A stretch of DNA of 64,000 nucleotides. Origin: Haliotis asinina. Its lineage: Eukaryota; Mollusca; Gastropoda; Lepetellida; Haliotidae. Position 1 is the first letter of the stretch. Each line of letters begins with the position of its first letter. The position numbers and the translations under genes are program-made. The notes below the pieces were generated by a model. That model had not been told where the DNA came from. It saw only the letters and a program-made list of their open reading frames with translations, and did not search any database. Below are positions 3,001 to 64,000 of this stretch, in pieces. The stretch is taken from positions 51,810,753 to 51,874,752 of the forward strand of contig NC_090281.1 in the NCBI RefSeq assembly GCF_037392515.1, given 5' to 3'.

Positions 3001-5102
3001 CTCACTGTAACAATATGGACACTGTATGCTATACTCACTGTAACAATATGGACACAGTATGCTATACTCACTGTAACATTGTTGACACTGCCTGCCCCAG
3101 GTCTGTACAATCAGGCAGTGCTCTGTGGTCTGCTTGGTCCTCCTCCTCCCCGACGGGCATCAGCAGGACATTGTCCTGGATACCAAGGTGGCTGTAAGTG
3201 GTAATTACCAATTACTTCAGTTCCATATTTTTTAAATATGAGAGCAATTCTTTCATTTATAAGTGTATCACGATATGGCCATTTTAGAAGGAGGAGGCAT
3301 TTACAGCAGTTTACAGCTTTCAAGCTATATCATCATGACTGAAAATGATCCAGTCAGTTGAGCATCTCTAAGACATGGCACATAAGCCTTTACAATTAGT
3401 CACTTGTCAGATCAGTTAATAAAGTAACACCTGTAGAACAGTTATGAATATACAGCTCTCATTAATTAATTCTTTGCAATAGTTCTTGGGTTGGTAAATA
3501 ATTCAGTCAGTATGAGCAAACAATGATGGCCTTTGCAATGAGTACACACTATACCAACCAGGTCATATATTGCAGCCAGTCACACCTATTCTGCAACAAA
3601 ATCCCACCAGGGGATAAAATAGTACCTGAAGATGTTATTTTCCAGCCAGTCAACCCAGGTGAAGATGACAGGGAGATTCTCAGACTCCTGCCACAACACA
3701 TCCAGCTGACCACACAAAGCAGCAAGCTGATTGGCTGTCAACCATGCGCATGACAGAGTGAACAATGGGGAACTCTGGGAAGGGTAAGTTGCAGGAAGAA
3801 CCATTTGCAGAGTAAGGGGAGATAAGTACTTCACGTTGAAAGATCCAATCCATCTCTGACCTGCAGTCAGAATGATTTCATGAAACTGAATAATCAAATA
3901 ACATCAACATTTATTCAATACCTATCTCAAGCATCTGGCCACCTGCCATTCATCATTACAATACCATTGGTTTAATACTGTATCATTCAATAGGCTTGCT
4001 CATTTTTTCACTCTGATGAAAATGTGCTTTGTTTGGTCTTTGTTCCTTCAAAGGCTGTTTTCACACAGCACAGCTTCTACTGTGAATTTCATAATACAAC
4101 ATACCTATCTTTATTCACTGATTCTACACAAGTCAACAATTTAAACTTCAGATCATTGATTCAATATCTCCAGTGAAATATCCAGGATGCCAAGGGCAGT
4201 GCTCGGTTGTGAATATTTTTTAGGGTGAATGCTGTATTCCACAGTGCAAATATAACTCAGCTAAAACTTTTTTCCAATTTTTTCACCAATAAGATTGATT
4301 AAACTTGCTTACCAGAGTCTGAGCGCATTAAGTTAACACATTTGCCAACTTCAGGAAGGGGAGCTGGTCCAGCACTGGCTGTTTCCTTGAGCTTGACAGG
4401 CATAAGGATATCTACCTTGATGTTCTGCTCATCTGTAGTGATGGGAACTGAAACCTGAAACATTCAGCACAGTAGACAGAACCAAACAATGCTGACTCCC
4501 ACTTGATGGAAGTAGATAATTATGTCATGGTGGATTGTAGAATTGGGATCCCTTACTACATAATAAAAAAAAGAAAACTTCAAACAATTCTGTGCAGAGG
4601 ATGGCACAGATAGTCCCATAACTGTTACCTATATTAACATATGAGTGAGTGGGTTTAGTTTTAGGCGGCACTCGGCAATGTTTCAGCTACATTTCAGTGG
4701 TCTGTAAATAATCGAGTCTGGACCTGACAATCCAATTATCAACACCATGAGCATCAATCTGCGTTTTTGGGAAATGATGACATGTGTCAACCAAGTCAGC
4801 AAATGTCACCACCTGATCCCATAAGTCACCTCTTACGACAAGGATAGTCGCCTTTTGTGGCAAGCATGGGTTGCTGTGGACCCATTCTATCCTGAAACTT
4901 TGCAGATCTCTTTACAAATGAGTATATATCCCATCATAAACACAATTAGCCAATATATGTGCAAAAAGGTATTGTTCATGCTCGGTATATGGATATTCCT
5001 TACATGTAATGTGTAGAAACCTTCCTTTTCTTCAGATGGTGAACTTAAAACTTTCAGTCTTTCAAATTCCCCTCCTTCATAGATAGACTGTAGAGCAAGC
5101 AC
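1..5102 (-). CDS. RNF14: RNF14-like RWD-RBR E3 ubiquitin ligase, paralog 1 (3' part off the window)
   Basis: This gene encodes an RBR-type E3 that takes ubiquitin from an E2 onto a RING2 cysteine. Coding exons read on the minus strand are 5102-5004, 4454-4313, 3860-3626 (together the RWD domain, with LALQSIYEG and [10 protein letters not shown]), 3191-3072 (acidic linker), 1278-1096 (RING1, HECHVC...[10 protein letters not shown]), 579-480 (CPDTDCD...DRWERLLLQ) and 120-1 ([11 protein letters not shown]). All junctions are GT-AG and in phase, and the exon order matches paralog 2 and vertebrate RNF14. RING2, with the catalytic cysteine, lies beyond the left edge. The first exon is not resolved. 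An ATG at 5355 opens MTTED, which resembles the human MSSED start, but its only in-phase donor (GTCCTC) is weak. The intron after the linker exon holds a large minisatellite. Family assignment is firm; the start is unsure. Confidence 0.88.
1534..1573 (-). repeat. Diverged copy of the linker-exon 3' end
   Basis: About 40 bp match the last part of the linker exon at 3072-3121 with roughly five differences, including the GACACTGCCTGC and TCAGG.AGTGCT blocks. It lies at the far end of the minisatellite from the real exon. The splice donor is destroyed here (ATTGAGT in place of CAGTGAGT). The array is therefore bracketed by two copies of the same exon end, one live and one dead. Confidence 0.75.
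1574..3071 (-). repeat. 33-bp minisatellite made of exon-end plus 5' splice-site units
   Basis: About 45 tandem units of 33 bp. From about 2160 onward they form a 66-bp two-unit higher-order repeat. On the sense (minus) strand each unit carries GTGTCCA..TTGTTACA followed by GTGAGTATA. This is the last 17 bp of the linker exon plus the start of its intron, and the array begins directly at the real donor (3072/3071). Because 33 is divisible by three, long spurious open frames cross the array on both strands; they are not genes. In the 66-bp part one unit keeps ACA|GTGAGT and the other reads ACAATGAGT, which lacks the GT. Confidence 0.93.
4641..4876 (+). repeat. Dispersed 240-bp SINE-like repeat (family B)
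   Basis: The copy runs from a TGAGTGAG tail through TTTAGTTTTAGGCGGCACTC, TAATCGAGTCTGGACC and CAACCAAGTCAGC to GGCAAGCATGGGTTGCTG. Near-identical blocks recur at 25131, 46103, 54704 (opposite strand) and 59850. It lies in the intron between the first two RWD exons of paralog 1. It has no reading frame. I recognise the style from abalone genomes, from memory only. Confidence 0.8.
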
Positions 5103-9520: not shown

Positions 9521-12500
9521 CTAGGAGTGTTGGGGACAGCTGGCTTTAGAGAAATGGGCAGTAACCACTCCCACAATCCTCATTCCGCATACATAGCAGA
9601 AGTTAATGCTGCAACAACGACATCGAATGTGGTTGTTGCGGTCAACTTTGACGTTCTTGTAACGACAATTCGGGCATGAAATTGTTTCCCTGACCTTTGC
9701 ACCAACCATACTCTCTACGTACTCCATGTTCTGGAACAAAAAGATAGTTGATAAATTGACATGCCGTATTTCCCATAATCGTCGAATACACGTGTACAAA
9801 GCTGCGTTTAACAGAGAAAATGATATCTAAATTACTCTAATTCTGTGCTAAGGACTAACATCTCTTCTGACAGTCACATTATCTATGGCTGCCGATATGC
9901 AATACCGTATTTGAAATATTAAGCGCCGGACCAGATCCACAAAGAATTCGTAAGTTATGACATTCGTTAGCCTGTGGTAAACGTTACGAATGCTTTGTGG
10001 AGAGGGACCCAGGGCTCAGTTTCACGAAGCTCTTGTATGCCTAAGATCTCGTAACTTTTCTCGCAGCATTCGTACCTCCTGTATTAGAGTATATGAGGTA
10101 CCTATTATCTATGTTTCACCTACATAGAGATAACCAGTTCCTGTGCCTCATCGCTAGTCAAGTAGATTCCGACGTTTACTTAAAATTGGGGCCCTTCCAT
10201 AATTCTAAACTTAATGTAAAGTAAGTGACCCTCCTTCATGTCATGTACAAAATGAATGACAGCTCACCTACTACATATGTACAGAACTGATGGCACCCTG
10301 CCTCCCCAGAACAAAATGGAACACATTAGCTACAAGTCTAAAGTGATCATAAGTTACCTTAACTTCTCATACCTAAAAACGTCTTCTTTGCAAGATAAAC
10401 GTGCGTTCACGTATAATACCTGAGGGGTGATGTTTCCCACGAGGGGAGTTAACTCCGTCATGTCCATGAGACTACAGCGCGAGTTGCCCACAGTGTAGTG
10501 CCGATAGCCGTGGATCACCAAGCCGCAGAGCCAGCAGAAGCTGATGCCACATCTACACTTCATTTTGTTGCATCTGCAACAAAGAGGGCGCGGGTTCAGA
10601 TATTTACACACCACATATCGGTGAGGAGTAACGATGAAATAACAATAACGTTATGCTATAAACCTTTTACACGTACAGGGTGGCCTACTGGTTTGAGGCG
10701 TCGCAATTCCATGTGCAGAGTTGTGTCCCTTAAGCAGAACACGAATCTTGTGAGTGAGGGCGCGAATATGGGTTTGGCGCACTGATTATGATTTCCAGTT
10801 TGTCAGTGTTAAACGTCTAACACCTGCATCACTTTTTCCAATAACAATATGCGGAAATGCCGTAAGGTAACTGGAATATTGTTCAAAGCGTTTCTATCAT
10901 ATAGAACTGAGTATGGTTTTATACATTCTCTTCCCACAGAAATTACACCTGTCATATCATCCTACATAACAGGAGTAATCTCTGTGGGAAGAGAATGGGT
11001 TTTATACTGATTTAGCAACATTCCATCAGTAGATGCGGTATGCCGAAAATGGACTTCACACATTCGATCTGTCCATGTGGGGAATCAAGCCCGGATGTTT
11101 GGTGTCACAAGCAAACGACTAACCGCCCCTTTGTTATTGACCAAAACTCATCATGAGACCATGCTGCTGGTCTGATTGATCCAAAGATTTAGGAAGGAAT
11201 ACAATTAAGCATCATTTATAATCTGCATTAATAAAGAAATTATTACAATCTGAGTGTGCTGACATTTTGAAAGTTAAAACAAAACTATTATACCATTTCG
11301 TTAATCCACGTGGTATATTTTTAAGATTTGAAATTGAGAAAATCAAGGACCTATCTGTGACGAAAGTTCGCTATATTTCCGGGATCCCAATTTAAACCGT
11401 TTTTCAACCAGTAAGGTTGCAGCCAACATTTTCATTCACTTTACAAGTCTGGACGGCTGGACTAGTGACTTAGGATTTACACCGCCTTTCCGATCTCTGA
11501 GTGGGGATCAGCAAACTACATAAACAGATGTATATGTATTATTTCTTGAATAAAATACCCTTTCCAAAACTCCCATGCACATCTCAAAAGCGTACTGACA
11601 CTTCCAATTTCGAGAAATATGAATGAGAGTTCAAAATCAAAAAGAATACTTCTCGGGATTTTAAATTTTGACTTAGCTCACTCACCCCCCTGCCTTTTCT
11701 ATCTTTGCGCTGCATTTCGGACAAAGCCTGGTCTTTCGATGAAGCCTCGTCTTGCTTCTGATTTCTTCCTCAAGCTTCCGTCGCTTCTCTTCAAATTGGC
11801 GCCTTTCACTTGCAGACGACAATAGTCCCTTCCGGTTCAGATTCTGTAGTTTCTCTTCCATCGTAATGCATACTTCTCCCTGCAACATTACACCTTGGTT
11901 GTGTTGGTATTATTTCCGCGCGAAATACTTCACTCCGCAGGTCACGTGCAATTACTATATTATATCTGGTAAACTTAAGATCTAAAATAAGGGGTTTTAT
12001 GAAAACGCCATAACCTGCCATAACACCCTTACAATGTTTTACATGTAGGTCAGGGTGCATGTTTCGGGATACCAGCATTATTTCAAACCCCACAAAAAGT
12101 AAGCACCTGTATATTACATGACGAGAAAGCCACCCGCAATATGGATTGTAATCCACATGGATGCTCAAGAACAATATTCAAATCCACGTCGCACGTCTAC
12201 GAAACCTGAGAAAGTACGAGAGATGCGGATGTTTCTGGATTTGTGCCACCACATACATACTCCATGAGGATCGCAAGTACCATTACAGAAAATCGATTCT
12301 GTTCTACTCCACACTAAGGCCGAATGTTCAATGTTGCAAACACATAAAGTCAATATATAATATGTAATACGGGAAGCATAAAATAAAAACGAATCTTCAT
12401 AACTACAGACAAAAAGTTTCATGGACTCGCCAGTACTACAATGATATACTTATGAACACTATGTAACATGGCAACCACTGATATTGACTTGGAACATTAA

Positions 12501-15500
12501 ATGCTCGAACCATACAAGTTACTAACATACATGTTAATAACAGGATGCTGAATAATGCAACTAGGTAATGACTGAATGCTGAATAGTGCAATCAGGTAAT
12601 AACTGCACTGCAATTTGCAACCAGATAATGCTCAATGCTGCAACCGGGTGAATACTGCAACTAGGTAATGACTGAATGCTGAATACTGCAACTGGGTAAT
12701 GACTGAATGCTGAATACTGCAACTGGGTAATTACTGAATGCTGAATACTGCAACTGGGTAATGACTGAATGCTGAATACTGCAACTGGGTAATGACTGAA
12801 TGCTCAATACTGCAACCGGGTACTGACTGAATACTGCAACTAGGTAATGACTGAATGCTCAATACTGCAACCATGCAATGGATGTGAATGACTGTTACTG
12901 CTCAATACTGCGACAACGTTATCAATGGGAATGTTAAATACTGAACCACCGAGGAGCCACTGAGGATGTTATATGATGCGATCATGAAATTGCAAGGAAT
13001 GCTATTTTCTGACATCATGAAATGACTGGCAGTGCCACCCTGCACACTCCTATCTAACCCTAACTACTATCTATCTAAATATATAATCAGGCAGTGGAAA
13101 TGCGGACGGCAAGACGATACAGGAGAACTGGGTCAGGTATAATCTGCCACAGAGACCCTGGAACAAATTTATCCAGTAGATTTAGATTAATGCCGGCCGT
13201 TTTGGTCGGAAATGTCATGGGCTCAACTTAATTACATTTTATTACGATAATTTAATAGTTAATTTTTCTGTAATATGTCCACTTCATTGACAGGAGTTTA
13301 GGTGAAGTTTAATATTGGGGGATGCGATATACAGGTTATCACAATTCTAATTCTATATTCCCAATGTCTCAAATGAAAAAATAGCAACCAAACACAATTC
13401 TTGAGAGGATATTTTGCATTCATATATCACTGCACACAGAGTGCGTATTCCAGAATTTTGGTATCAGCGAAATCAGTAAATGTAGAATTACATGCCTTTC
13501 TGATGCAAAACTTGATCGTTCAGTTACATGTAGTTAAAAACACCCCGTCACACAGAAGGGGCACTTGATCTCTTACAATGGAATGAATATTGCTTGCCTA
13601 GCGTTGAATTAGCGGCGGTGGGAGAGTCCTGTGGTTCACATGGCTACAGTGTGTGAAGTCCATTTATGGTGCCCTCAGTCGTGATATAGCTGGAATATTG
13701 CTAAAGGCGGAGTAAAGCTAATCTTACTAATGCTAAAGTATGTGCTAACCTGCTACCACGCTTGCAGGACCACAGGATTAAAAATTATAAATGTGAAAAA
13801 AATATATATGAAACGTTGAGATGTCCCCTGACTCTAACTGCTTTACAGTACAATACATGTTTCAAAGTATTAATGTTTTTTGGTTTAAGAGGAAACAAAC
13901 TCCCATTTAAGTGTATTAAATGTATGAAATGATGTTGCATATTTCTGTGTTTCCTCTCACTCTATATTCGTTTTTTAATTAAGATTTTTACAAAAAGTGA
14001 ATTATTCTAGCTGTTGCCATAGTAAAACTATTTCTTCATAATAAACTAAATTATGTAAAAGTTTTATTGTTCTAATTGTTCTCACTTTCAAAAAATCGAG
14101 ATTGTGACGTGGAGGGAAATACTTTCCTCCATTTCATACAGATGTCTGAACTGATATTTTAGTCGTCTAAGTGAGTCAGCTCGATATTTAATGTTGCTTA
14201 AGGCGTGTTGTTCATTTAAGTCACATCAATAACCTTTCATTGGGTAAGTGGCAGTCATACCACAATGCCACAGGTGTTGCAAACTGTATTGATTCTGGGC
14301 GTCAGTCTTGTCTCAGCATCAACACAAACACTATCCTAACCCGGTGTCAGTGAAGCAATATTCAATGTGGAGATCAGTAAATGTAGTGCAAACATGGCAT
14401 ATTTTGGACTACTATTTGCAGCTCTTGTGTTCTTAGAGTGGGCACATCATGATCATGGCAGTACACTGGCCAGTCTAACTTCCAGGTGGAAATCTGACTT
14501 GGATATTTCCAGATGTATAGCAAACTGTTTAGCCAAAGGAACGGACTTGTTCTTTAACGTGTCATTCACCGATGTTAATGGGGATATACGACATTATCAC
14601 AAGATACCTGTGACATATCAACTTCCGATTCCCTGGAACAGTGCTGCTTTGAGAGGCATAAACACTGGTGTTTTCGGGAGGATCAGTGGTAGTGAAAAGG
14701 AAACAAAAAATGGTTTCATAAAACAATCAAGTCAGAACATAAACAACGTGAAAAAAGCACCAAAACACAGAACGAACAAGGTTTTGGTGAAGCAATCGCC
14801 ACCGACCAAACACAAGGCAAAGAAAGCACCAAGAAAGAAGAAAAGCGAAGGTTTCAGGAAGACATCAATTAAAAACAAGGCAAAGAACACACGAAGAAAA
14901 AATAAAAGCAAGGGTTTCAGGAAGCAACCTGTTAAAAACAAGGAGAAGAACACACACAGAAAGAGTAAAAGCAAAGGCTTGGTGAAGCAACCAAAACAGA
15001 CCAAAAACAAGGCGAAGAACACTGGAAGAAGAAGTAAAAGCAAGGGTTTCAGGAAGTCATCTCATAGACACAAGGCCAAAAACAAACGAAGAAAGAGTAA
15101 AAGCAAGGGTTTCAGAAAGACACCTGTTAACAACAAGACGAAGAACTCGCCGAGAAAGAGTAAAAGCAAGGGTTTCAGGAAGTCATCTCATAAACACAAG
15201 GCCAAGAACAAACGAAGAAAGAGTAAAAGCAAGAGTTTCAGAAAGACACCTGTTAAAAACAAGGCCAGGAACTCGCCGAGAAAGAGTAAAAGCAGGAGTT
15301 TCAGAAAGACTTCTCATAAACACAAACCCAAGAACAAACGAAGAAAGAGTAAAAGCAAGGGCTTCAGGAAGACACCTGTTAAACACAAAGCAAAGAACAC
15401 ACAGAGAAAGAGTACAAGCAAGGGTTTCAGAAAGACTTCTCATAAACACAAACCCAAGAACAAACGAAGAAAGAGTAAAAGCAAGGGTTTCAGAAAGCCA

Positions 15501-18500
15501 CCTGTTAAAAACAAGGCGAAGAACACACACAGAAAGAGTACAAGCAAGGGCTTGGGGAAGCAATCAACACAGACCAAAAACAAGGCGAAGAACACTGGAA
15601 GAAAAAGTAAAAGCAAGGATTTCAGGAAGAAACCTGCTAAAAACAAGGCCAAGAACTCGCCGAGAAAGAGTAAAAGCAAGAGTTTCAGAAAGACACCTCA
15701 TAAACACAAAGCCAAGAACAAACGAAGAAAGAGTAAAGGCAAGGGTTTCAGGAAGCCACCTCATAAACACAAGGCCAAGAACAAGCAAAGAAAGAGTAAA
15801 AACAAGGGTTTCAGAAAGACACCTGTTAGAAACAAGGAGAAGAACACACACAGAAAGAGTAAAAGCAAGGGCTTGGCGAAGCAATCAACACAGACCAAAA
15901 CCAAGGCGAAGAACACTGGAAGAAAACGTAAAAGCAAGGGTTTCAGGAAGACACTTCATAAAAACAAGGCGAAGAACAAACGAAGAAAGAGTAAAAGCAA
16001 GGGTTTCATAAAGACACCTGTTAAAAACAAGGCGAAGAACAAACGACGAAAGAGTAAAAGCAAGGGTTTCAGAAAGACACCCGTTAAAAACAAGGCCAAG
16101 AACTCACAGAGAAAGAGTAAAAGCAAGGGTTTCAGAAAGACACCTCATAAAAGCAAGACCAAGAACAAACGAAGAAAGATTAAAAGCAAGGATTTCAGGA
16201 AGACACCTGTCAAAAACAGTAAGGGGAAGCAGTCCACACCAACCAAAAACAAGGCAAAGAAAGCACGAAGAAAAAATGAAAACATGATGTTCCGGAAGAC
16301 ACCTGTTAAATACAAGGCGAAGAACACACCAAGTAAAAGCAAGGGTTTCGGGAAGCAATCAACACTAACCAAAAACAAGGTAAAGAACACACATAGAAAA
16401 AGTAAAAGGCAAGGATTTTGGGAAGCAATTAACACTGACAAAAATCAAGACGAAGAACACACTAAGAAAGAGTAAAAGTAAGGGCTTGGGGAAGAAATAC
16501 ACCACACCTAATACAAGAATTTGGCCCAGCAAAAAGCCATATTTTATGTAACTCTTAAATAGAGAAGATTTATCAAGACAGGGTTCAGTATGGTTTCCAC
16601 ATCAATGTTGTATGCTTCTCCAGAGGCAGCTATTTTGTTTAACGCTTTCTTCCGTATGCCTTTGTTTTACACTTACGTTTCATACATGACTATAGGAATT
16701 GTTTACATGAATTGTTTACATGAATGGTTGTACAAATATGAACTGAATAAATGTGAATGTACTTGTTTGTCCCATTTGTTTGTTCTGTGCTGCATAAATC
16801 GACTCTGGGCAATCTAGTGATTGATACCAGAAGCAACGTCCCACACTGGCAGTGTACAAGGTGGGGTAGTCTAGTGGCTAAAGTATTCTGGATTTCATTC
16901 CCCACAATGTGCAAAACCTATGACGGTGTCCATCCTTTTTGTCGTATTCTATGACATGAGTGAGCTGCTAGGGCCAATTCTAGCTCTGGACTTTTCTTCA
17001 CTTCTGGTGTTTACCAATGTGTGATAAGATCTAACAATTTAAATCACGTAATAAATTTTAAAGCCATATTCCTATTTCTTTGGTTAATCGCACGTATCCA
17101 TGGAAACACTTCCTCTTATAATGCAACAGCCAACATAGGTCGCAATGTGACATTGACTAATGAAACAACTACATGCAGCCCTAATGGAGCATCCACACAT
17201 TGTCACGCTGACATTATACTACATCCTCACGGCCACACTCTGTCACCTGGTGCTACACAGCCACACCCACTCAACTGATGCCACACAGACACACCCGCTC
17301 ACTTGATGTCTCACCTACACAGTCACACCAATTCACCTGATGCCACACTTACGCAGCCTCACCCACTCACCTCATACCACAGAGCCACACCCACTCACCT
17401 GTTGCCAAGGGTCCCTGCACAGCCACACCCACTCACCCGATGCCATACAACCACACCCACTCACCTGATTCCACACAGCCACACACACACTCACCTGATG
17501 CCAAGGGTCCCCGCACAGCCACATCCACTCACCTGATGCCAAGGGTCCCCGCACAGCCACACCCACTCACCTGATGCCAAGGGTCCCCGCACAGCCACAT
17601 CCACTCACCTGATGCAAAGGGTCCCCGCACAGCCACATCCACTCACCTGATGCCAAGGGTCCCCGCACAGCCACATCCACTCACCTGATGCCAAGGGTCC
17701 CCGCACAGCCACACCCACTCACCTGATGCCAAGGGTCCCCGCACAGCCACACCCACTCACCTGATGCCAAGGGTCCCCGCACAGCCACATCCACTCACCT
17801 GATGCCAAGGGTCCCCGCACAGCCACATCCACTCACCTGATGCAAAGGGTCCCCGCACAGCCACATCCACTCACCTGATGCCAAGGGTCCCCGCACAGCC
17901 ACATCCACTCACCTGATGCCAAGGGTCCCCGCACAGCCACATCCACTCACCTGATGCCAAGGGTCCCCGCACAGCCACATCCACTCACCTGATGCCAAGG
18001 GTCCCTGTACCGCCACATCCACTCACCTGATGCCAAGGGTCCCTGTACCGCCACATCCACTCACCTGATGCCAAGGGTCCCCGCACAGCCACATCCACTC
18101 ACCTGATGCCAAGGGTCCCCGCACAGCCACATCCACTCACCTGATGCCAAGGGTCCCTGTACCGCCACATCCACTTACCTGATGCCAAGGGTCCCTGTAC
18201 CGCCACATCCACTCACCTGATGCCAAGGGTCCCCGCACAGCCACATCCACTCACCTGATGCCAAGGGTCCCCGCACAGCCACATCCACTCACCTGATGCC
18301 AAGGGTCCCCGCACAGCCACATCCACTCACCTGATGCCAAGGGTCCCCGCACAGCCACATCCACTCACCTGATGCCAAGGGTCCCTGTACCGCCACACAC
18401 ACACACTCACCTGATTACACACCCACTCACCTGATGCCAAGGGTCCCTGCACAAGGTACAGAAGGAAAAGAAGCAAGTCGTGCAGTGCCCTAGATTCAAA

Positions 18501-21500
18501 TGGTCCTCCTCTTCTCGAATCACAGGGTTGTTGCATCTGGGGCACCACTCCACATCACTCATACTCTCTAAAGCTTTCTGACAGAAAATAAAGAAACGAA
18601 CTTCAGACAGTTGCATGTACATTTCATCAAATCACCTATAAAACACACCAGTATAACACAACATTAGCTTTGTCATTCACTAATCTTCAAGTTAGGCCCA
18701 CCATGGGTACTTCATGGTATAGTGGGGCAACATAACTATTCAGCTTTGTCGTTATTTCATTTGAGACGGTGAGGTAGCCTAGCGGTTAAAGTGATGGCTC
18801 GTTGAAGACCCGGTTCGATTCCCCACTTGGTTACAATGTGTGAAGTCTATTTCCGGTGTCCCCTGCTGTACTACTGGAATATTGCTAAAAGCGATGCGAA
18901 GTCATACACACTCACCCAATATTTAATTTTGTTTGTTTTTTCTGTTAGCATGTGAGGAGACAAAGCCAGTAATTGTTGCGTATTTGAAGATTATACGTGC
19001 GCCTCCCGACATATGCGAATTGCATACAGGGTTGCTGGTACCTGAACCATTCGATCGTCATTTTATAGCTTATATCCGATAACGCCGATGCATTGTCAAA
19101 TTTTAAGGTTCAAACTTTGAATTAATATATTCTCGTAATATATACTACGCCCGCCTGGACAAATACCTTCGACGTAATATGTAAGCAGTTTCCTCATTCA
19201 TCGAACGATGTGAATATCCACCATGCTCACCTGTAGAAGCAGTCGTTCCCACCTGTCGAATTCCTCGGCAGGTAACACGCTCTGAACAACGTCTGGGGGA
19301 ACACTGACGTCGCAGTCGGTGGCAGGACATCTGCAAGAAATACAATAAGATCATTTCAATATTCTTTGAGTGAGTGAGTGAGTGAGTGAGTAAGTGAGTG
19401 TGTGGGCGAGTGAGTGAGTGAGTGAATATAGTGCTGCGCCGTGATTAGCAGTATTCCAGCACTAGCACGGCAGGAGAGCAGGCATGGGCAAACCACACTG
19501 CACCCTTGTGGGGAATAATACCCGGGCCTTCGGCACGAACGAACGTTTTAACCATTTGACTTTTCCACAGCCCTATTCCGAGTAGACAGTCCCCGAGTAC
19601 CCAGGGTGTCCTGTAAGCCGACTATAAGAACTGTAACAAGTCCTCATCATGTCTGACCTAATGTGACGTTGAGCATAATTTGAACCCAGGTCTTCGACGA
19701 AAGCTTTAACCCCTTGGATACCCAAACCCAACCCCAACACCCCAACCCCCATGTGAAAGAGAGAGAGGTCAGATCAAGGTTGACTGTGTGTAAGCGTATC
19801 GAGACTGTGAGGCGTTTCTAAAGAATCATGGGACATATCGTAATATTGCAGGCTGTGGTGTTCGCGAGCTCGCTTGCTCGTGCGTTTCCTCTAACTGACC
19901 TGAGCTCCTCGACAGTGCCTAAAGACACGTGATGGTGACAATAGGCCTCCATGCATTCTCGACAAATGTGGTGTAAACAGTCTGTGAGTCTGTAAAACTG
20001 TCTCCCAGGAAACTCCTCAAAACACACGAGGCATTCGTGGTTACTTCGGACGAATTCGGCGTTGTCCAAAGTTCGGTTGTACCTATAATGCAATACTTAT
20101 AAACTCGGAATGTTTCAAACAACATGAATCATTACTTTGTCTTGAAATCATACTGGGCATTTCATTTTCCACAAAGGTAAATGTCTGATACCGATACAAG
20201 AGTCGAGACGTAGGGATCTGTGACCCCTGCAGCTTATACAGTCATATGGCCAAATCCGTTGTCAGAATACATACATTTCTTGTTACTAAGGAAATGTAGA
20301 CTTGTGCAAAATATTTCTAGACTTGAATTCTAGACAACAAGGGTGAGTTTCAAACAGCCAATCCCTTGCAAGCGATATAGAGCGATTTGCCTTACAGCAG
20401 AGCGCTTAAGTCCAGCCGGCTGCAATCGCACCAGATGTTAGCTGAGGCATTCTCTTTCCACAGAGGTTACTTGTATGACCAGTAACCTCTGTGAGAAGAG
20501 AATGTGGCTGAGGTCGGTTCGTTCTCAAAGCAAAGTGGCGGCCGAGGGAAATCAGAATTCGACGCCTTAACTAGAAACACTGGACTGGATCAGATGGGAA
20601 AGGGCCAATGGCAGCTTAGAGCCCAACATCTTCCATTTTTATACATCTTCAAAGTAGTCGTCAACAGTCATAAATTCATCGGCTAGTTATCTCATCTTCT
20701 ATATCATTCTTTGTTGTGGCAAGCTGACGCGTAGCAAACCATTCATTTTTTCGTGCAAGCCCAACAGGTTGCAAAAGTTTATATTTATATATAGTATTTA
20801 GGGTTTGCACAATTGTTCTAGGAGCAATCACGGGCTTTTTTTTACAATGGTAACTACGTCCCTGTCAAGACGAGCGCGCCATTCTAGAAGCGCGGGAAAA
20901 CCGCACCACGAGATGTTCAAGTCCGAGTTAAGCATGGGTTTAGTAATGATTAGTAATAGCAAAAGACAAGTGAAAATAGACATCAGTAATACTCCTTATA
21001 TATTGACGATGTAGATAGAGACAAATTTATCTTCCGTCGAATATGATGCAAAAAAAAAGAAAGAAAGAAAAAAAAACGACAGTGGTTTGCTGTACATCAA
21101 AAAGTAATACAAGATAATAGTCAGCATCACACAGTTTCCACTTCCTTCAAGTGTCGCACAATATGGCGAATCGAACATTTATGTGCAGTCCCCATCGATG
21201 GAATGGCGAGCTGTATTTTAATGAGTGAGTGATTTCAGATTTGTAGTCACATCCACAATATCTCAGCCATATTGTGACTTTAAAAAGATATGGATTCATA
21301 ATAATGTCCAAGAGCGGTCGTCGTGGTCGCTCTCGGGTGGTAGTTTAGGATGGTGGACAAGAGACAGGGAGGACATGAGTCGGTGTTAGAGATGAAGACA
21401 GCAGCAGCCATATTTTATTACTGTTTGGTCGAAGGATGGTCAAAATGGTAAATACAGTGGTAAACATGTGACAGAACGCACATCAGGACTGAATGGCCAA

Positions 21501-24500
21501 TGATCCCGATGTGGAGACCCGCTCTGTCACTTACACACATTCAGAAGTCCGACGGCGATTCTTCATCGTCGACGTAGTCGTAGGTGGGGCGACGGCCTTG
21601 GCCGACACCCCGACTAGACGCACAATCCGTCCACTTCTGTCGATGATCTAGTCTCCATGGTTGGTCTCGCTGGTTGGTCTCGCTGGATGGTCCCGCCGGT
21701 TGGTCTGTCGACTGACCATATCGGTCAGGTTTTTATACACAGGGCCATTACGCCACATTGTGCAAGGTCACTGGCCCATGCACATGTACATACGTAAGAT
21801 TCGCCGACGTAGGGAGGTGTTAACTGAAATGTATTGATAGCGTTTGAGAATTAAGGGTCCTGCCCGGAGGGGGGTTTATGATAAGAGGGGATACACCGAA
21901 TGTTTGCCGAATACATTACATAGACAAAGGGGATAGAATTTCGGTGCACTTTGGACTTATATTGAAACAAATAGATTGTTTGAATAAATGAAGTTTTAAG
22001 GAAACTTATTGAAATGATTTAGTCTATGACAACACCCCTGAACGTCGTGGAGCTTTTGTCCTCAAAAGCGCTTTTTAAGAATAGTGACAATATTGGATAT
22101 AAAAGTATACAGTGAATTGGATGAAACGTTGACGCGTTGACAATATCTAGTACAGGCATCGATCATAAGTCACATAATCGTAATGGCATATACGGGAACG
22201 TCAAAGGTAATACATGAATCGAATTGTCAACAATGGTCAGGCGAAACAAAACAATAACAATATCGGACGTGTACACACAAAATACAGGTGAGCGGCTATC
22301 CAGCTCGTACAACAACACAGGTGAGCGGCTATCCAGCTCGTACAAATAAAACATTGGTCGTTTCCACCGAGCGGCAAACTCTTGCTCGCGGTCGCCCATA
22401 CAGTCGGAATACCTGACTGATAAGTACACGTATGACTTACAGGAACAAAAACAGAATGTGGGTAATGCGTCGTCGTTTGCATTTGAATGTAATATTTTCA
22501 TGACAACAGTAAGATCTTTGAAATTGGGAGTCTTATATTGGTGAGCCTAGACTCGACAAGGCTAGCAGATGTAGATGTGATCTGCACTAAAAGTAGAATT
22601 GGCATGAGAAAAAAAATAAACCTAACCAACTTCAAAAGTCTAAACCGAAAGTTGATGAAAAATTAATTCAAGTGAAATTGGCTCAAAGATATTTTAGCGA
22701 ATTGTATATTGTGTGCCAGTTACCATAGAAAGTATTATGCACATGGATACTAAATTTTCGCCGGTATCATAACTAAGCACAAACACGTTGGCAAAACGAA
22801 GAAGTAGGATGTAGACTGGATAAACAGTCTCCATCAAATAAGCTTGGAGAGACATAGCTTATTATACTTCTACGACTGCTTTTACCACATAAAAAGATTT
22901 AGACGTTTTCACGAAGAGTAATTACAGTATTGCATAGCTCGTTATAAGCTATTGTCCATAGTAATAGTTATAGAGGAACAAATTGCTAGAAAAATCCTTG
23001 AAACCGGGAGTCTGATTTGAGTGGGACGACTCGGAACCCGCAGATAGCGTTGATCTGCATTAAATGTGTATATGCAAGGATATGTAGTAAAGTAAGAGCC
23101 TAACCGACTTCAAAAACTTAATCTAATAAAGATGTACGCCTCATAACATCACATACAGATAGCAATAAGTACTCAGTAGATGAAAAATATGACACATATA
23201 AATACATATGAAACAATGGCTGGAGAAGATTGACATACCTGACATGTACAAGAATGTCCGAGGGAAACATATACAGTCACTATAAAACTCTGAGATAGTT
23301 CGAACAAACGTTCACATGTATTGTCACACACATATTATGGAGTACTTGCTGCAGATACTTGAAACTCGCTGACTTGATCTTGACGGATGACGTTGATATT
23401 TGTTGTACTCACACATGGGCTTGCTGCGTCTTGCTGCTTTCGATGATTTAGAGAAGGTTGCTGGTTATGGGCTGCACTCTCGTTGATGAAAGGTCGGCTG
23501 ACTGTCTGATGTCTTCGTTCTTCCGCCAAGATAGCGCCCGACGTTGACGCTGCTCTTGTCAACCACCATCTCTAAACTACCGGTTGCTTTGCTGCGAGTT
23601 AGGGTAGGGGAATCGTGCGTGAGTCTCAGCAAACTCACGCTACCCGGATATTTCTCCACCATCTGTCCAAGAGCGATCGTCGTGGTCGCTCTCGGGTGGT
23701 GGTTTAGGATGGTGGACAAGAGACAGGGAGGACATGAGTCGGTGTTAGAGATGAAGACAGCAGCAGCCATATTTTATTACTGTTTGGTCGAAGGATGGTC
23801 AAAATGGTAAATACAGTGGTAAACATGTGACAGAACGCACATCAGGACTGAATGGCCAATGATCCCGATGTGGAGACCCGCTCTGTCACTTACACACATT
23901 CAGAAGTCCGACGGCGATTCTTCATCGTCGACGTAGTCGTAGGTGGGGCGACGGCCTTGGCCGACACCCCGACTAGACGCACAATCCGTCCACTTCTGTC
24001 GATGATCTAGTCTCCATGGTTGGTCTCGCTGGTTGGTCTCGCTGGATGGTCCCGCCGGTTGGTCTGTCGACTGACCATATCGGTCAGGTTTTTATACACA
24101 GGGCCATTACGCCACATTGTGCAAGGTCACTGGCCCATGCACATGTACATACGTAAGATTCGCCGACGTAGGGAGGTGTTAACTGACATGTATTGATAGC
24201 GTTTGAGAATTAAGGGTCCTGCCCGGAGGGGGGTTTATGATAAGAGGGGATACACCGAATGTTTGCCGAATACATTACATAGACAAAGGGGATAGAATTT
24301 CGGTGCACTTTGGACTTATATTGAAACAAATAGATTGTTTGAATAAATGAAGTTTTAAGGAAACTTATTGAAATGATTTAGTCTATGACAATAATAGAAA
24401 CCTGTCGACGAAGGACAGTAAATAATAGATTATGCGGAATTAAAACTAGAATGTAAATGTAAAATTTACGAAAAGCAATTGGTCAAAACAACATAAAAAT

Positions 24501-26705
24501 CGGGCTAGAGAAACCAGCTACTGAAGGTAGGACCCTTGCTGGATTTACACCATCCCCTCGACCACAGCTGATTTCCGAGAATAAAGCTATAGATTTAAAA
24601 TAAACAAACCCCCAAAACACAGCAACATATTCTAGGATAACATAAGTTGTACGTTTTAAATTTACTTTGAATGTATTTTGACTTACGGACCCAGGAGTGC
24701 ATTTTAATGAACATCTGTGCTCAAATATATGGAATAAAAGAAGAAACTTCACATTTACGAACAGAAATGCTACTGTAGCTCACCTTGGTGAGAACTCACA
24801 GAATCGCGTGTAGGTGAAAGATAAAAGAGTAAGTTTAATTTGGAAAATTGCGCTGAAAACATAACAATATTTTTTCTCACTGTATCATTGTGTTCATGGC
24901 CTGATGAAACTGTGTGTTGATGTCAATGCCACCTTCATCATTGTCGACCTCACCTAAAGGTACATCTAAATTACTGCCAAGTTCCAGAAATCTGTAACAG
25001 AGGTAAACAACACTGTGAGTATTATAAATATTAAACGCAAAGATATTTGCATCGCCATCAAATATATCCAAACGAGGTGGCGTGTGTGACAAACATGTGT
25101 CTGTGCCTTTATACTAGTTACTAGTGAAAGAGTGAGTGATTGAGTTTAGTTTTGCGCCGCATTCAGCAATATTCCCGCTTTATGGCGGCCGTCTGTAAAT
25201 AATCGAGTCTGGACCATACAATCCAGTGATCCACAACATAAGCATCGATCAGCGCATGTGGGAACCTATGACACGGGTCAACCAAGTCAGCAAGCCTGAC
25301 CATGCAGCCGATCCTGTTAGTCGCCTCTTAAGTCAAGCTCTTTAGCTGAAATCTTAAGGAATTTATATCTCAAAGTCTTATATTAGGCAAGCTTACCTGA
25401 AGATGTTATTTTCCAGCCAGTCAACCCAGGTGAAGATGATAGGGAGATTCTCAGACTCTCGCCACAACACATCCAGCTGACTACACAAAGCTGCAAGCCG
25501 ATTGGCTGTCAGCCACACGCATGACAGAGTGAACACTGGGGAACTCTGGGAAGGGTATGTAGCAGGGAGTACCAATCGCAAACTTAGGGGAGGTAAGAAC
25601 TTGACGTTGAAGGACGCAGTCCAGGCACCATTTCCTGTAAGGAAAATAAAAAGGTGATTACAACTGTGCAATTTCACCACTCCTAGGATCAAGGATCCCA
25701 TGAGTTTGATCCTGATTTTCTTAACGTGTAAGGGATTGCGAAATAGATGATGGTTCGTTATACATACCGGTCGTCTCGAGTTGAACATCCTTTCCAACAC
25801 ATGGGGGAATTACTTCCCCTGCTGCTGCATTTTGCCTCAAGCCATCGTCTGTGGCGACAAAGTTTACTGTCACCACCTGTCCGTCTGTTGGCACAGGAAC
25901 AGAGATCTAAAGAAATAGACATATGGTTAAACAAGGCTAAAATTCTAGATCGAGCCAGAGTCGTGAAGATCAAGTTGAAATTAGAATGATAAACAGGTGC
26001 CATTTCGATATTTGGTTAGTTCACCACTGTCCACTTCGTTGATGTTAATTGCAATATGCTGATACAAATGTGGGCTGGCTTTATAAAATGATATACACTC
26101 GTGGGGATTTCGGGTTCAACATGATCCCCTTTACGCCAAGTTCCATGCAGCCGGGTACCATGACACGCAAGGATCTGTGATACATCTAACTCTAAATATT
26201 AACTTACTAGCAAGCAAGGATAAGCCGAGCATCGACCTGACAACTGGCCCGTACTAATTAGCAGATATGAGTGGTGCCCACGGGCGCTTGCTATTGTAAG
26301 CGCGAATGAACCCCATGTTGTCTGCGATCACCGACCTTATGAGCAAGGCGTGTGTATCTACGCATGGAATCAGTTTCATTTCACAAACAAATGGGTTTGC
26401 CCATTGCCGTGCACCGCCTTCTGCTCGTAAACGCATTCGGGGTTCCAACTTATCCTTGTTTGCCAGTAATCAACCTTTCAAAGCAGTTCTAAATATTTAA
26501 GTTTAAAATACTACAAGGATAAAAAGGCAAGTAAGATAAAACTTACGTGAAGAACGAAGAATTCCCCATCTCCGGCTGTGGGCGAATTGAGGACCTCTAT
26601 CCTCTTTACATCAGACCCATCGTATATGGACTGCAGCGCAATGACCTGGCAATCAGTAGGATATCTTTGAGTGTAATGTACAACTTGCTTGTCCACTGAT
26701 GACAT
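9521..26705 (-). CDS. RNF14: RNF14-like RWD-RBR E3 ubiquitin ligase, paralog 2 (complete)
   Basis: Ten coding exons read on the minus strand: 26705-26547, 25906-25768, 25634-25397 (RWD), 24991-24881 (linker), 20082-19900 (RING1), 19330-19231, 18577-18431 ([11 protein letters not shown]...CRDPWHQ), 11879-11686 (coiled-coil-like basic/acidic stretch, then LCPKCSAKIEKAGG), 10573-10420 (CNKMKCRCGISFCWLCG) and 9730-9521. Phases agree throughout and the total is 544 aa. The catalytic RING2 cysteine is the one in GGCNKMKC, encoded at 10570-10572. After RING2 comes a further zinc-type module (CPNC...NNHIRCRCC...FCYVCG) that ends the protein. The ATG at 26705 is in frame (MSSVDKQ). An alternative is a separate upstream first exon, because an acceptor-like CAG precedes 26645. 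The 6.6-kb intron after the IBR exon holds a donor array and an antisense nested gene. TTTATT at 9304 (AATAAA on the minus strand) could be the poly(A) signal. Confidence 0.88.
9929..10010. mobile_element. Short palindromic MITE-like element
   Basis: The arms CCACAAAGAATTCGTAA and the reverse complement of TTACGAATGCTTTGTGG face each other across about 40 bp. It lies in the last intron of paralog 2. Similar palindromic sequences built on a CACAAAG/TTAGC theme occur at 36868 and in part at 55243. Confidence 0.55.
10924..10997. mobile_element. MULE-type hairpin MITE, copy 1 (74 bp)
   Basis: A near-complete hairpin with termini CATTCTCTTCCCACAG and its complement CTGTGGGAAGAGAATG. It is flanked by a perfect 9-bp target duplication, GGTTTTATA (10915-10923 and 10998-11006). 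A 9-bp duplication with long terminal inverted repeats is typical of Mutator-like elements. It lies in an intron of paralog 2. Confidence 0.85.
12540..12880. repeat. 31-bp minisatellite
   Basis: About ten imperfect units around ACTGCAACTGGGTAATGACT followed by GAATGCTGAAT. The central five are almost identical and the flanking units are diverged. It lies in the large intron of paralog 2. No splice-site motif stands out in the unit, unlike the other two arrays. Confidence 0.85.
13600..13728 (+). repeat. Degraded tRNA-derived SINE (family A)
   Basis: The body block CAGTGTGTGAAGTCCATTT and the tail block ATAGCTGGAATATTGCTAAA are recognisable. The tRNA-like head is worn. Confidence 0.6.
14265..14339 (+). 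CDS. Upstream 24-aa open frame with a signal-peptide-like sequence
   Basis: A short frame reads MPQVLQTVLILGVSLVSAST and four further residues, then a stop, 27 bp before the ATG of the lysine-rich gene. Its hydrophobic core and small-residue end look like a secretion signal. It could be an upstream open frame in the 5' leader, a relic first exon, or chance. No splice arrangement joins it clearly to the next frame. Confidence 0.25.
   Translation: MPQVLQTVLILGVSLVSASTQTLS
14367..16475 (+). CDS. Intronless lysine-rich tandem-repeat protein with signal peptide, nested antisense in an RNF14 intron
   Basis: I do not recognise a family. One 702-aa frame: a hydrophobic signal-like segment (MAYFGLLFAALVFLEW, from the second Met at 14394), then about 85 residues of ordinary sequence with one Cys pair (SRCIANC) and an N-glycosylation site (NVS). 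About 25 imperfect repeats of roughly 21 residues follow, around RKSKSKGFRKTPVKNKAKN. The repeats are almost free of acidic residues, so the protein would be extremely basic. GLGKQSTQTKNK-type variants recur about every fifth to ninth unit. A one-base insertion near 16408 shifts the frame. The repeat pattern continues in the other frame for about 40 more residues, while the actual end is WEAINTDKNQDEEHTKKE. AATAAA at 16746 fits a 3' end. It lies wholly inside the 18431-11879 intron of the opposite-strand RNF14 paralog. A secreted matrix, mucus or structural role is only a guess. Confidence 0.75.
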   Translation: MEISKCSANMAYFGLLFAALVFLEWAHHDHGSTLASLTSRWKSDLDISRCIANCLAKGTDLFFNVSFTDVNGDIRHYHKIPVTYQLPIPWNSAALRGINTGVFGRISGSEKETKNGFIKQSSQNINNVKKAPKHRTNKVLVKQSPPTKHKAKKAPRKKKSEGFRKTSIKNKAKNTRRKNKSKGFRKQPVKNKEKNTHRKSKSKGLVKQPKQTKNKAKNTGRRSKSKGFRKSSHRHKAKNKRRKSKSKGFRKTPVNNKTKNSPRKSKSKGFRKSSHKHKAKNKRRKSKSKSFRKTPVKNKARNSPRKSKSRSFRKTSHKHKPKNKRRKSKSKGFRKTPVKHKAKNTQRKSTSKGFRKTSHKHKPKNKRRKSKSKGFRKPPVKNKAKNTHRKSTSKGLGKQSTQTKNKAKNTGRKSKSKDFRKKPAKNKAKNSPRKSKSKSFRKTPHKHKAKNKRRKSKGKGFRKPPHKHKAKNKQRKSKNKGFRKTPVRNKEKNTHRKSKSKGLAKQSTQTKTKAKNTGRKRKSKGFRKTLHKNKAKNKRRKSKSKGFIKTPVKNKAKNKRRKSKSKGFRKTPVKNKAKNSQRKSKSKGFRKTPHKSKTKNKRRKIKSKDFRKTPVKNSKGKQSTPTKNKAKKARRKNENMMFRKTPVKYKAKNTPSKSKGFGKQSTLTKNKVKNTHRKSKRQGFWEAINTDKNQDEEHTKKE
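16746..16751 (+). promoter_or_regulatory. Candidate poly(A) signal of the lysine-rich gene
   Basis: AATAAA lies 270 bp after the stop codon of the nested gene. It is the first clear plus-strand signal downstream, and GT-rich sequence (TGTACTTGTTTGT) follows. Confidence 0.5.
17021..17278 (+). CDS. Possible signal-peptide exon with N-glycosylation sites
   Basis: The frame opens with a strong hydrophobic stretch (FKAIFLFLWLIARIHG). It continues NTSSYNATANIGRNVTLTNE, with four N-X-S/T sites, before running into the minisatellite. The pattern resembles the start of a secreted or immunoglobulin-like protein, but no downstream exon was found and the C-terminal part is repeat sequence. It may be chance. 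It lies inside the paralog 2 intron. Confidence 0.2.
   Translation: MIRSNNLNHVINFKAIFLFLWLIARIHGNTSSYNATANIGRNVTLTNETTTCSPNGASTHCHADIILHPHGHTLSPGATQPHPLN
17220..18430 (-). repeat. 38-bp minisatellite made of IBR-exon end plus 5' splice-site units
   Basis: About 27 regular units of 38 bp (17395-18430) with a few diverged ones to the left. On the sense (minus) strand each unit reads GGGACCCTTGGCATCAG and then GTGAGTGGATGTGG. The first part is the last 17 bp of the IBR exon (codons for R-D-P-W-H-Q), and the next bases are its intron start. The array begins exactly at the true donor (18431/18430). Almost every unit keeps an intact CAG|GTGAGT. A variant reads GGTACAGGGACCC, adding an acceptor-like TACAG before the exon-like part. 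Reading from the exon into the array meets a stop after seven codons. Confidence 0.93.
18766..18930 (+). repeat. tRNA-derived SINE (family A)
   Basis: The head GAGGTAGCCTAGCGGTTAAA (A-box-like) and GGTTCGATTCC (pol III B box) are followed by ACAATGTGTGAAGTC and the tail block CTGGAATATTGCTAAAAGCG. It lies in the paralog 2 intron between two RBR exons. Confidence 0.8.
19366..19560 (-). repeat. tRNA-derived SINE (family A), opposite orientation
   Basis: A GAGTGAGTGAG tail of about 60 bp is followed by the reversed body (GTGCTGCGCCGTGATTAGCA, CTTGTGGGGAATAATACCCG). The tail begins about 35 bp upstream of the acceptor of the 19330 exon on the sense strand. Confidence 0.7.
20448..20504. mobile_element. 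MULE-type hairpin MITE, copy 2 (57 bp)
   Basis: Termini CATTCTCTTTCCACAG and its near complement enclose a nine-base loop. The flanks are 9-bp duplications with one mismatch (TAGCTGAGG at 20439, TGGCTGAGG at 20505). It is almost pure terminal repeat, in the intron 5' of RING1 of paralog 2. Confidence 0.82.
21305..22031 (-). repeat. LTR (3' LTR in element orientation)
   Basis: 727 bp, nearly identical to 23664-24390. The minus-strand TATA-like motif is near 21735 and AATAAA near 21415. Confidence 0.88.
23664..24390 (-). repeat. LTR (5' LTR in element orientation)
   Basis: 727 bp, nearly identical to 21305-22031. It is followed on the plus strand by the second ATAA target duplication. Confidence 0.88.
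25131..25338 (+). repeat. Family B repeat
   Basis: It shows GTGAGTGATTGAGTTTAG, TTTTGCGCCGCATTCAGC, AATAATCGAGTCTGGACC and GTCAACCAAGTCAGC in order and ends in TAGTCGCCTCTTA. It lies between the linker and RWD3 exons of paralog 2. Confidence 0.8.
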
Positions 26706-26754
26706 GTGAAGATGAAATAGTCACATGACTGCGGCCAGGTAACAACAAGACTGG

Positions 26755-26860
26755 ATGTCCAGTGTAAAAGACTTCCGCTCGTCACGCCAAACACCAGGGC
26801 TCGATTCCCAAATGTGTAAATTGTGTGAAACCCATATTAGTATTTCGGTGTCTCCAGCTT
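26755..26860 (+). repeat. Partial tRNA-derived SINE (family A)
   Basis: GGGCTCGATTCCC (B-box-like) and TGTGTGAAACCCATATTAGT match the SINE head and body. It lies just upstream of the proposed start of paralog 2. Confidence 0.55.
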
Positions 26861-28103
26861 TCATTTCTCGGATCTCGTATACAATTACATGTGATTTTTT
26901 CTCTCTCTTTTTTTTAATTTTTTTTTGTTTCCTTCCTTTTCGTCTTTTTGCTTTTGCTTTTTGCATTTTCCCCTTCCCCTTCTTTCTGTACCGACAGATT
27001 TAGTGATACACAGTCGCTTAGCTCAGATATGGAGTATTTAAAGGAGTCAAATGGGATTAAATCATTTGATGGATAGTTTCCACTGTCGCTCAGTGTATAT
27101 GTTCATATAATGCTGACATCAAAAATGAAAATTTATGTCCCTGTTTACCATTACAACATTTCAAGAAACTATAGGATCGACATCAGTTTTTCATACCTCG
27201 TCACTCTGTTCCTGAAAGTTCTCATGTGAAAGATTGCCATGATGATTTTTTTCAGGTACACCCCCTTCTGCCATAAACCGGAACACAAAGAAATTGTACA
27301 GATATATTCTTCACAGTTGTATTGAACGTCTGTATCACCAGTATACGTCCATCTTGGTGATATTCTGTCCAACTGTAAAACGTTCACGTTCCAAGATAAA
27401 AGTGAGGCAAATGTTGCACAACGTTTTGACATTCTGTCACATAACCTAACATGTGCTTTGTGTTGACAACAACATGACGAACCAATCAATTTAAGCGAGA
27501 CGAGACACGTGATGGGTGTTGAGCTTTGTGCAGTGCTGGAACCCTTTCTTGCATGGAGCTCAAGTCATTGAGGGATTATCGTACACTAGTTTACTTGCCC
27601 TAGAGCGCTTGCGCTCCTCTTTGCGAAACCGTTAGCAGACCAAGGGCAGAGGACCGTGTTCACATGCAGGAGCGATCCCTCCTTTCACACCAGTTGGTGT
27701 TGTGTGTTGTAACATGCGCGGATCCAGGAATAAAACATAAGCGGTATATAACTTCAATTCCAATATAATTCCAACTTAATAACCCCCTACTGGGATTAAG
27801 GATTGCCCACGTCCTTGTTTTCATGTTGACTTAACACTGGTAAATATTTTCTCACAAGGACATGAAAATACAAATTTGTATCTAAATACGACATGGCCTA
27901 TATTTAGTTTTGTTCGAGACAGTACATAAACACTGACATACAAAAGTAGTGTCCGAAATAAAGCTGTGGAAAAGGACAATTGACCCGTCATAAATAAATA
28001 TTATAACCAGTGATAGTGTACTGAAATAACCAGTGATGTGTAATTAAGTCAAGTACTGAGTTAATTCAAGTCTTTCGGCGAATGCGGGTCACAGATTAAC
28101 TCC

Positions 28104-53639: not shown

Positions 53640-54560
53640 CGTCGAACAGATGCTTAAGGAATGTTCTGCCACTCCTGCTGTAGAGCAAGGGCCAATTCTG
53701 CGACGTTGTTAGGTTGACGTTGACGTTGACGTTGACGTTGACGTTGACTTTGATGGACACGGCGTCGAAGTTCATCCCACAAATGTTCAATGGGGTTTAA
53801 ATCTGGTGAAACAGCTGGCCAGGGAAGAACTGGTATCTGCTCTTGCTGGAGTAAGTCTCTGGTAAGACGTGCATTGTGGAGACGGGCATTATCATGCTGG
53901 AATGTGAAGGGCAGTTGCTGATGTCCATAGTTGTTCAGAAGCGGTTGAAGAACAGGCCTCAAAATCTGGTCGACATAACGCTGTGCTGTCAACAAAGCGA
54001 TTTCTCTCAATAACGCGTCCATCTTGATAACGTTCGTGTTGCCGTCTGTATACATGTTGACGTCCGTCGGCAACGGATAGACAGAACCTTGACTCATCAG
54101 AGTAGACACAATGGTTGAAGAATCTGGGTGGCATAAGGCGATGTTGTTGAGCAAACATGGCAGCCCGATGACGTGGTCATGCTGTTTCCACGGTATGGCC
54201 TACGACATCTCATACCCACAGTTCACAGACGTGTCATCACCGTCATAGCGCTGACTCGCCGTCCGTTACGTCCTACTGTGGTGAGAATTGTGTTTGCTGC
54301 TGTCTGAAAGCGGTTCCGTTGATGTGCTCGTCGGATGTGCTCGGTCTTGACGTGGTGTCGTAACCGGAAGTCGGCCCGGTCGTGGACGGTCACGAACACT
54401 TCCTGTTTGCTGATGACGTTGCTGGAGTCTGTGTACAGTTGATGGATGCACTCCAAAGAGGCGGGCAACGTCGCTCCGGGATGTTTCGGCCAACAGCATC
54501 CCAGTGGCTTGATTCCTCTGTGGTTCGTTGAGCCGTGGCATTTTGTGACTGGTAGTGAAA
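53640..54560 (-). mobile_element. Decayed Tc1-like element, different subfamily
   Basis: On the minus strand: MPRLNEPQRNQATGMLLAET, SDVARLFGVHPSTVHRLQQR (helix-turn-helix), RDRPRPGRLPVTT, YSDESRFCLSVADGRQHVYR, then DNARLHNARL and NPIEHLWDELRRR. The D-34-E spacing is kept. At least two frame changes separate the pieces. A CAACGT hexamer run (53714-53752) inserts a QRQRQRQRQRQ tract after the last catalytic motif. Clear terminal repeats were not found; the right end may be cut by the neighbouring family B repeat. Confidence 0.85.

Positions 54561-59133: not shown

Positions 59134-64000
<4,867 letters not shown>

Follow-up and report, generated by a model that had tools for sequence, protein, structure and literature searches.

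An array of exon-end copies at a 5' splice site: a probable 'mirage' minisatellite in an RNF14-type gene of Haliotis asinina

In the gastropod Haliotis asinina, one of two tandem RNF14-type genes carries, directly downstream of exon 8, a minisatellite whose unit spans the 5' splice site, joining the terminal 22-23 exonic nt to about 15 nt of the intron. The array is quite probably a donor-spanning minisatellite of the 'mirage' kind, which would have arisen by local tandem duplication, with later gene conversion between the paralogs, and whose surplus splice sites would be decoy donors. The window analysed is the whole stretch C2:51810753-51874752 (64,000 nucleotides; C2 is contig NC_090281.1) of a 1.14-Gb genome and contains the following features.

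9521..27274, minus strand: RNF14 paralog 2, whole coding region, 11 exons, 550 aa, RWD and IBR (gene model and Pfam)
24881..24991, minus strand: exon 5 of paralog 2, donor ACA/GTGAGAAAAA, homologous to the arrayed donor of paralog 1, without an array (TRF, gene model)
18431..18577, minus strand: exon 8 (IBR exon) of paralog 2, which supplies the exonic half of the unit with its final 22-23 nt (Pfam IBR, gene model)
18425..18430, minus strand: true 5' splice site CAG/GTGAGT (U1 pairing -12.4 kcal/mol)
18369..18430, minus strand: the first two units, both irregular (20 and 42 bp), with an in-frame TGA (site intervals, frame)
17495..18368, minus strand: homogeneous core, 23 of the 24 38-bp intervals (TRF, site intervals)
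17225..17494, minus strand: degenerate outer units, like the 28-34-bp units of paralog 1 (TRF, site intervals)
11880..18430, minus strand: intron 8 of paralog 2, holding an antisense nested open frame (gene model)
11686..11879, minus strand: exon 9 of paralog 2, which must join the first donor (WHQ-GEVC) for the full frame (gene model)
1574..3087, minus strand: companion array at the exon 5 donor of paralog 1, 33-bp unit, ACA/GTGAGTAT (TRF, unit comparison)

The model of paralog 2, on the minus strand between 27274 and 9521, has 11 exons and closes a 550-aa frame, in which RWD, IBR and IBR_1 exceed the Pfam cut-offs; RING models are matched by the RING1 exon, all of them below cut-off. An RWD domain followed by RING1-IBR-RING2 is the domain order that defines RNF14, and by this order the predicted product is classed as an RNF14-type RBR E3 ligase. 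Its closest named relative is a protein of the sea slug Elysia (41%). The IBR domain is encoded by exon 8 (Pfam E 6e-11), which the model bounds by the acceptor ATTTTCTGTCAG and the donor GTGAGTGGGT. As the frame of paralog 2 is intact, the array cannot be taken as the mark of a dead gene. Intron 8 houses two further elements. On the plus strand, antisense to the gene, a 711-aa open frame (14340-16475) consists of lysine-rich 21-aa repeats with a 63-bp unit, for which a Pfam search returned no match; at 12545-12947 there is another array, of 31 bp, most units of which contain GTTGCAG, like the true exon 9 acceptor. Elsewhere in the window lie Tc1/mariner-like transposase frames (39332-40540 and 53654-54199; HTH_Tnp_Tc3_2, DDE_3) and, on the minus strand, squalene epoxidase exons (60506-61936).

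The array extends on the minus strand from 18430 to about 17225 and comprises 31 GTRAGT sites, the true donor included. The intervals between them measure 38 bp in 24 of 30 cases, the remainder being 20, 42, 30, 28, 28 and 18 bp. TRF recovers a 38-bp unit in 24.3 copies (17474-18397, 96% matches) and, at the outer end, a degenerate 28-bp period reaching 17228; the period measured at the first donor is 62, owing to the first two units of 20 and 42 bp. The degenerate outer units are probably the older ones. A 31-nt probe made of the exon tail and the donor finds 26 matches with up to 4 mismatches on the minus strand, counting the true copy, and none on the plus strand of the window, while Markov-1 random sequences (20, each of 64 kb) gave no match better than 20/31. 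A minisatellite with this unit, lying across the true splice site of an RNF14-type gene, had been proposed in a sequence-only reading of the window, and the TRF result, the GTRAGT sites, the gene model and a unit alignment that includes the exon boundary all bear that proposal out; the exonic part of the unit, put there at 11 nt, is in fact 22-23 nt long.

The claim that most units keep a near-consensus donor holds as well: CAG/GTRAGT is found at 28 of the 31 sites, again with the true donor counted, and these pair with U1 at -12.3 to -12.4 kcal/mol. The true exon 8 donor is the strongest U1 match among the ten donors of paralog 2, the others ranging from -4.6 to -11.1. Some units had also been described as gaining TACAG, so as to form tiny exon-like cassettes with both splice signals. 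Units with an acceptor-like TACAG do exist, five in number, but by substitution (GGTACAGGG for TGTGCGGGG) rather than addition, and the acceptor is weak at best. The one unit measured has 7 pyrimidines in the 17 nt ahead of CAG, compared with 7 to 15 at the ten true acceptors, one of which (exon 9) is no better.

A unit that spans an exon end and an intron start, and keeps its splice signals, is what characterizes the lancelet 'mirages'. These have been described in Adh3, the globins BflGb6 and BflGb9 and troponin C, and similar repeats in PGBD5 (PMC3087553, PMC3902484); the first report is Canestro et al. 2002, as cited in PMC3087553. As here, the mirages are minisatellite-like and repeat an exon-intron boundary in tandem; many of their units contain splice signals, and the interior is homogenized (PMC3087553, PMC3902484). 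The lancelet arrays also differ in length between haplotypes (PMC3087553, PMC3902484), which may have a counterpart here in the C2 and C7 copies discussed below. The lancelet cases include 3' boundaries, whereas the present search was limited to donors, and BflGb6 haplotypes hold 6 and 3 units, as against tens of units in the snail arrays. The mollusc host and the sharing of an array by paralogs also set the present case apart.

Donor choice was read from the reading frame and from protein predictions of relatives, which are perhaps not cDNA-based. By frame computation, the full protein is obtained when exon 8 is spliced at 18430 to exon 9, and WHQ-G stands at the corresponding junction in the related proteins P0001, P0002 and Elysia P0003. 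Among the 41 GTRRGT sites between 18430 and 17270 the first donor alone keeps the full frame; the other 40 would stop early, 38 of them at codon 373 within the array and 2 shortly past the junction. The in-frame TGA is the eighth codon after CAG, in keeping with the early frame closure and the non-productive downstream donors that had been predicted. The function of the array is probably none or mild.

A human VNTR cautions against assuming neutrality. That of ABCA7 intron 18 has a 25-bp unit in about 12 to 427 copies (PMC5954066), and the first GT of the array is the true donor of exon 18, a resemblance to the snail case. The ABCA7 unit starts at GT, an exonic part being unstated in the portions of the source available, while the snail unit holds 22-23 exonic nt; array length is reported to affect splicing in ABCA7 (PMC5954066). 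Since the human array can alter splicing with its length (PMC5954066), the neutrality of the exon 8 array is not assured. An alternative, on balance unlikely, would make the array a splicing rheostat, in which the U1 sites of the array would vie with the true donor, and the proportion of mRNA with a stop, and through it the amount of this RNF14 protein, would depend on how long the array is. The strength and number of the CAG/GTRAGT sites (28/31, -12.3 to -12.4 kcal/mol) and the early stop at all other 40 GTRRGT sites suit this idea, as do the length effect and the retention of one unit seen with the ABCA7 donor VNTR (PMC5954066); lancelet mirages, by contrast, are reported without disturbance of normal splicing (PMC3087553, PMC3902484), and length is not kept between the two copies of the snail array, with 24 versus 18 full intervals.

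That second copy lies on C7, where 50000001-50083714 matches the C2 region in inverted order, with gaps between blocks. Under a filter of over 900 bp and 93%, the blocks share 95.3-99.9% identity, apart from one over the exon 5 array at 93.3%. The C2/C7 pair reflects either a recent duplication on a large scale or a haplotype put in the wrong place. No second full copy was found for C7:51.0 Mb among the 40 of 1005 candidates scored, and the assembly therefore seems not to be diploid there. The full 38-bp intervals of the exon 8 array number 24 on C2 and 18 on C7, as alleles or duplicates, while its outer units are nearly unchanged between the copies; the exon 5 array counts 45.9 and 42.9 copies, respectively. 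Also within the window, the stretch 21305-24391 resembles an LTR element, with direct repeats of 728 bp, alike at 725 positions, on either side of 1.6 kb; it is missing entirely from the C7 copy. Minisatellite-like repeats are hard to assemble, and an inverted C7 copy with 93-99.9% identity in blocks, perhaps a misplaced haplotype, would suit an assembly artefact in the array or in its length. Such an artefact is very improbable, given that the array is present in both copies, where its outer units hardly differ but its cores are of unequal length, and that its units vary among themselves by substitutions.

The neighbouring paralog provides a further comparison. Paralog 1 runs on the minus strand of C2 from 7509 past the start of the window, and its own exon 8 donor, just outside, carries an array that spans most of the roughly 890-bp intron 8. 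The contrast drawn between the paralogs in the sequence-only reading, in which the array of paralog 2 came 'from a different exon', does not stand. Intron 8 of paralog 1 begins with a shorter unit form of about 28-34 bp, and GGGACCCTT, by which the 38-bp form reaches further into the exon, was not seen in its units. Exon 8 is identical between the paralogs at 143 of 147 positions (97.3%), whereas exon 4 reaches 87.2% and the remaining nine exons 53.5-73.0%; in the 150 nt of intron upstream of exon 8, 79 of 140 aligned positions agree. The exon 8 peptides of the two paralogs agree in this genome at all but one of their 49 residues; between P0001 and P0002 there are five differences, all among the first ten residues. 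Given 143/147 identity in exon 8 against 54-73% in nine other exons, gene conversion is likely, and it is probably how exon 8 and the array edge came to be common to both paralogs. An array would not be needed for conversion, since identity is raised in exon 4 without one in this genome.

The companion array noticed at the exon 5 donor of paralog 1 is confirmed by TRF as a 33-bp repeat: exon 5 (3191-3072) ends at 3072 and the array runs to 1574, with 45.9 copies. At the homologous donor of paralog 2 (24881) TRF finds no array. The tandem paralogs hence act as internal controls, the same exon 5 donor being seen with and without an array. The idea that array birth requires a strong donor sits ill with the exon 5 donor of paralog 1, which is weak (-5.9 kcal/mol).

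The exon 8 unit is specific to its locus. Searched genome-wide with up to one mismatch, by a method that skips very common words so that absence elsewhere is not absolute, the unit core gave 55 matches, all of which fall at RNF14 loci, whether on C2 or on C7; the reversed core gave none. Two of the 55 fall in an inverted array about 0.7 kb past paralog 1 and in its C7 copy. This array (C2:51807387-51807703; L010:6635-6951) lies on the plus strand, about 0.6-0.7 kb 3' of the last exon of paralog 1 and inverted to it, and repeats a 44-bp unit of the exon 8 family (GGTGTGGCATCATGTGAGTGGG...); no adjoining exon was seen there. Although this second array and the GTGA-like simple repeats of the window might suggest a dispersed satellite or mobile repeat inserted at the donor and merely resembling the exon end, that origin is very improbable and is largely refuted by the confinement of the 55 matches to, or just beyond, the RNF14 loci; the 22-23 nt of coding exon in the unit also speak against it.

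With a donor-spanning minisatellite as the preferred account, a sequence of steps may be proposed. DNA around the exon 8 5' splice site would have been tandemly duplicated, probably because replication slipped, or repair acted, between short stretches of similar sequence. The earlier form, of 28-34 bp, would have included about 9 nt of exon and a later 38-bp form, present in paralog 2 and not in paralog 1, 22-23 nt; the interior of the latter would then have expanded and become homogenized. Exon 8 and the array edge may subsequently have been swapped between the tandem paralogs by gene conversion. Splicing presumably continues normally, with the exon-proximal donor serving the mature mRNA and the other sites as decoys whose use would place a stop codon in the message. 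The inverted array past paralog 1 is unaccounted for by duplication plus conversion.

Arrays of donor-like words are widespread in this genome, an observation made here for the first time and extending to genes other than RNF14; the sequence-only reading had included neither this, nor the sharing of exon 8 and its array by both paralogs, nor the locus specificity of the unit core. Defined as three CAGGTGAGT spaced 12-42 bp, such arrays gave 570 matches genome-wide, against 45 for the reversed word. The matches listed, from C1 to C3:17.6 Mb (about 20% of the genome), resolve by eye into 19 distinct arrays, two of them RNF14, from which about 100 arrays are extrapolated for the whole genome. The reversed word forms 17 arrays genome-wide, 9 of them in that same span; a shuffled control word gives 112 matches in at least 15 arrays, and its reverse 25 matches. 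As a single word CAGGTGAGT occurs 12,862 times and its reverse 6,369 times, a factor of 2.0, so that the extrapolated array ratio of about 6 (about 100 versus 17) becomes about 3-fold per site, whereas the 19 versus 9 arrays of the listed span show no excess per site once divided by 2.0. For CAGGTAAGT there were 227 matches against 41; most of the places listed belong to one array at C2:71.63 Mb, with at least 10 distinct arrays up to C5:0.55 Mb.

At least 27 distinct arrays lie outside RNF14, and the 5' side of 25 was inspected, all but C3:17600885 and C2:86285188. In 14 of the 25, an open frame, mostly behind an acceptor-like site, reaches a donor situated at the array or immediately ahead of it; these exon-end calls were made by eye, without a control for chance open frames. 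The other 11 show no exon end in the inspected flank, and some of them begin further upstream. Pfam was run on 15 peptides, of which 14 came from the loci with an exon end and one from an exon close to a further array. Two exceeded cut-off (cysteinyl-tRNA synthetase, E 2.3e-18; alpha-L-fucosidase, E 1.6e-8) and four matched below it (biotin carboxylase, queuine tRNA-ribosyltransferase, DUF4487, reprolysin); one had a chance-like match to a bacterial family and eight had none. Over 16 loci, namely these 14 plus the two donor arrays of the window, the exon-side homology to the next unit ranges from 3 to 43 nt, with a clear period at the donor missing in two, biotin carboxylase and C5:551411. At the cysteinyl-tRNA synthetase exon (C2:96826540) the 45-bp unit of the donor array is open in frame over the units inspected, so that use of a donor further down would lengthen the protein by 15 residues for each unit and bring no stop.

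The human CBS 31-bp VNTR causes alternative splicing. Named c.1444_1467+7(16_21), with 16-21 units, it has by that name 24 exonic and 7 intronic nt per unit and thus spans a donor as in the snail (PMC2630376); a table places it at 'exon 13-intron 13' (PMC1395315). CBS is one human locus, whereas the snail genome has several such arrays. The cases of sea bream myostatin-2 and earthworm metallothionein are not the same phenomenon as far as the available text goes, and neither is an abalone TSSK1-like intron repeat, with a 27-bp unit lacking GTRAGT; a source on human segmental duplications likewise describes something different, mentioning exon-intron boundary tandem repeats as a source of new introns. 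In the literature searched, mostly in forms short of full text, no donor-spanning arrays in molluscs and no genome-wide count were found.

Within that literature, boundary-spanning minisatellites have so far been lancelet cases or single human loci. A mollusc genome with several of them, next to exons of genes such as those for a ubiquitin ligase, a fucosidase and a tRNA synthetase, makes the birthplace of minisatellites a testable matter. That donors are favoured birthplaces is possible rather than shown, because no per-site excess is seen in the listed span (19 versus 9, divided by 2.0); passive capture of a common word in a minisatellite-rich genome fits as well. Were donors favoured, hundreds of genes might carry tandem copies of their exon ends, with standing splice-site choice and intron-boundary change across the genome, an outlook that is tentative and somewhat doubtful. 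The same arrays also make it testable how the spliceosome picks one donor among tens of equals.
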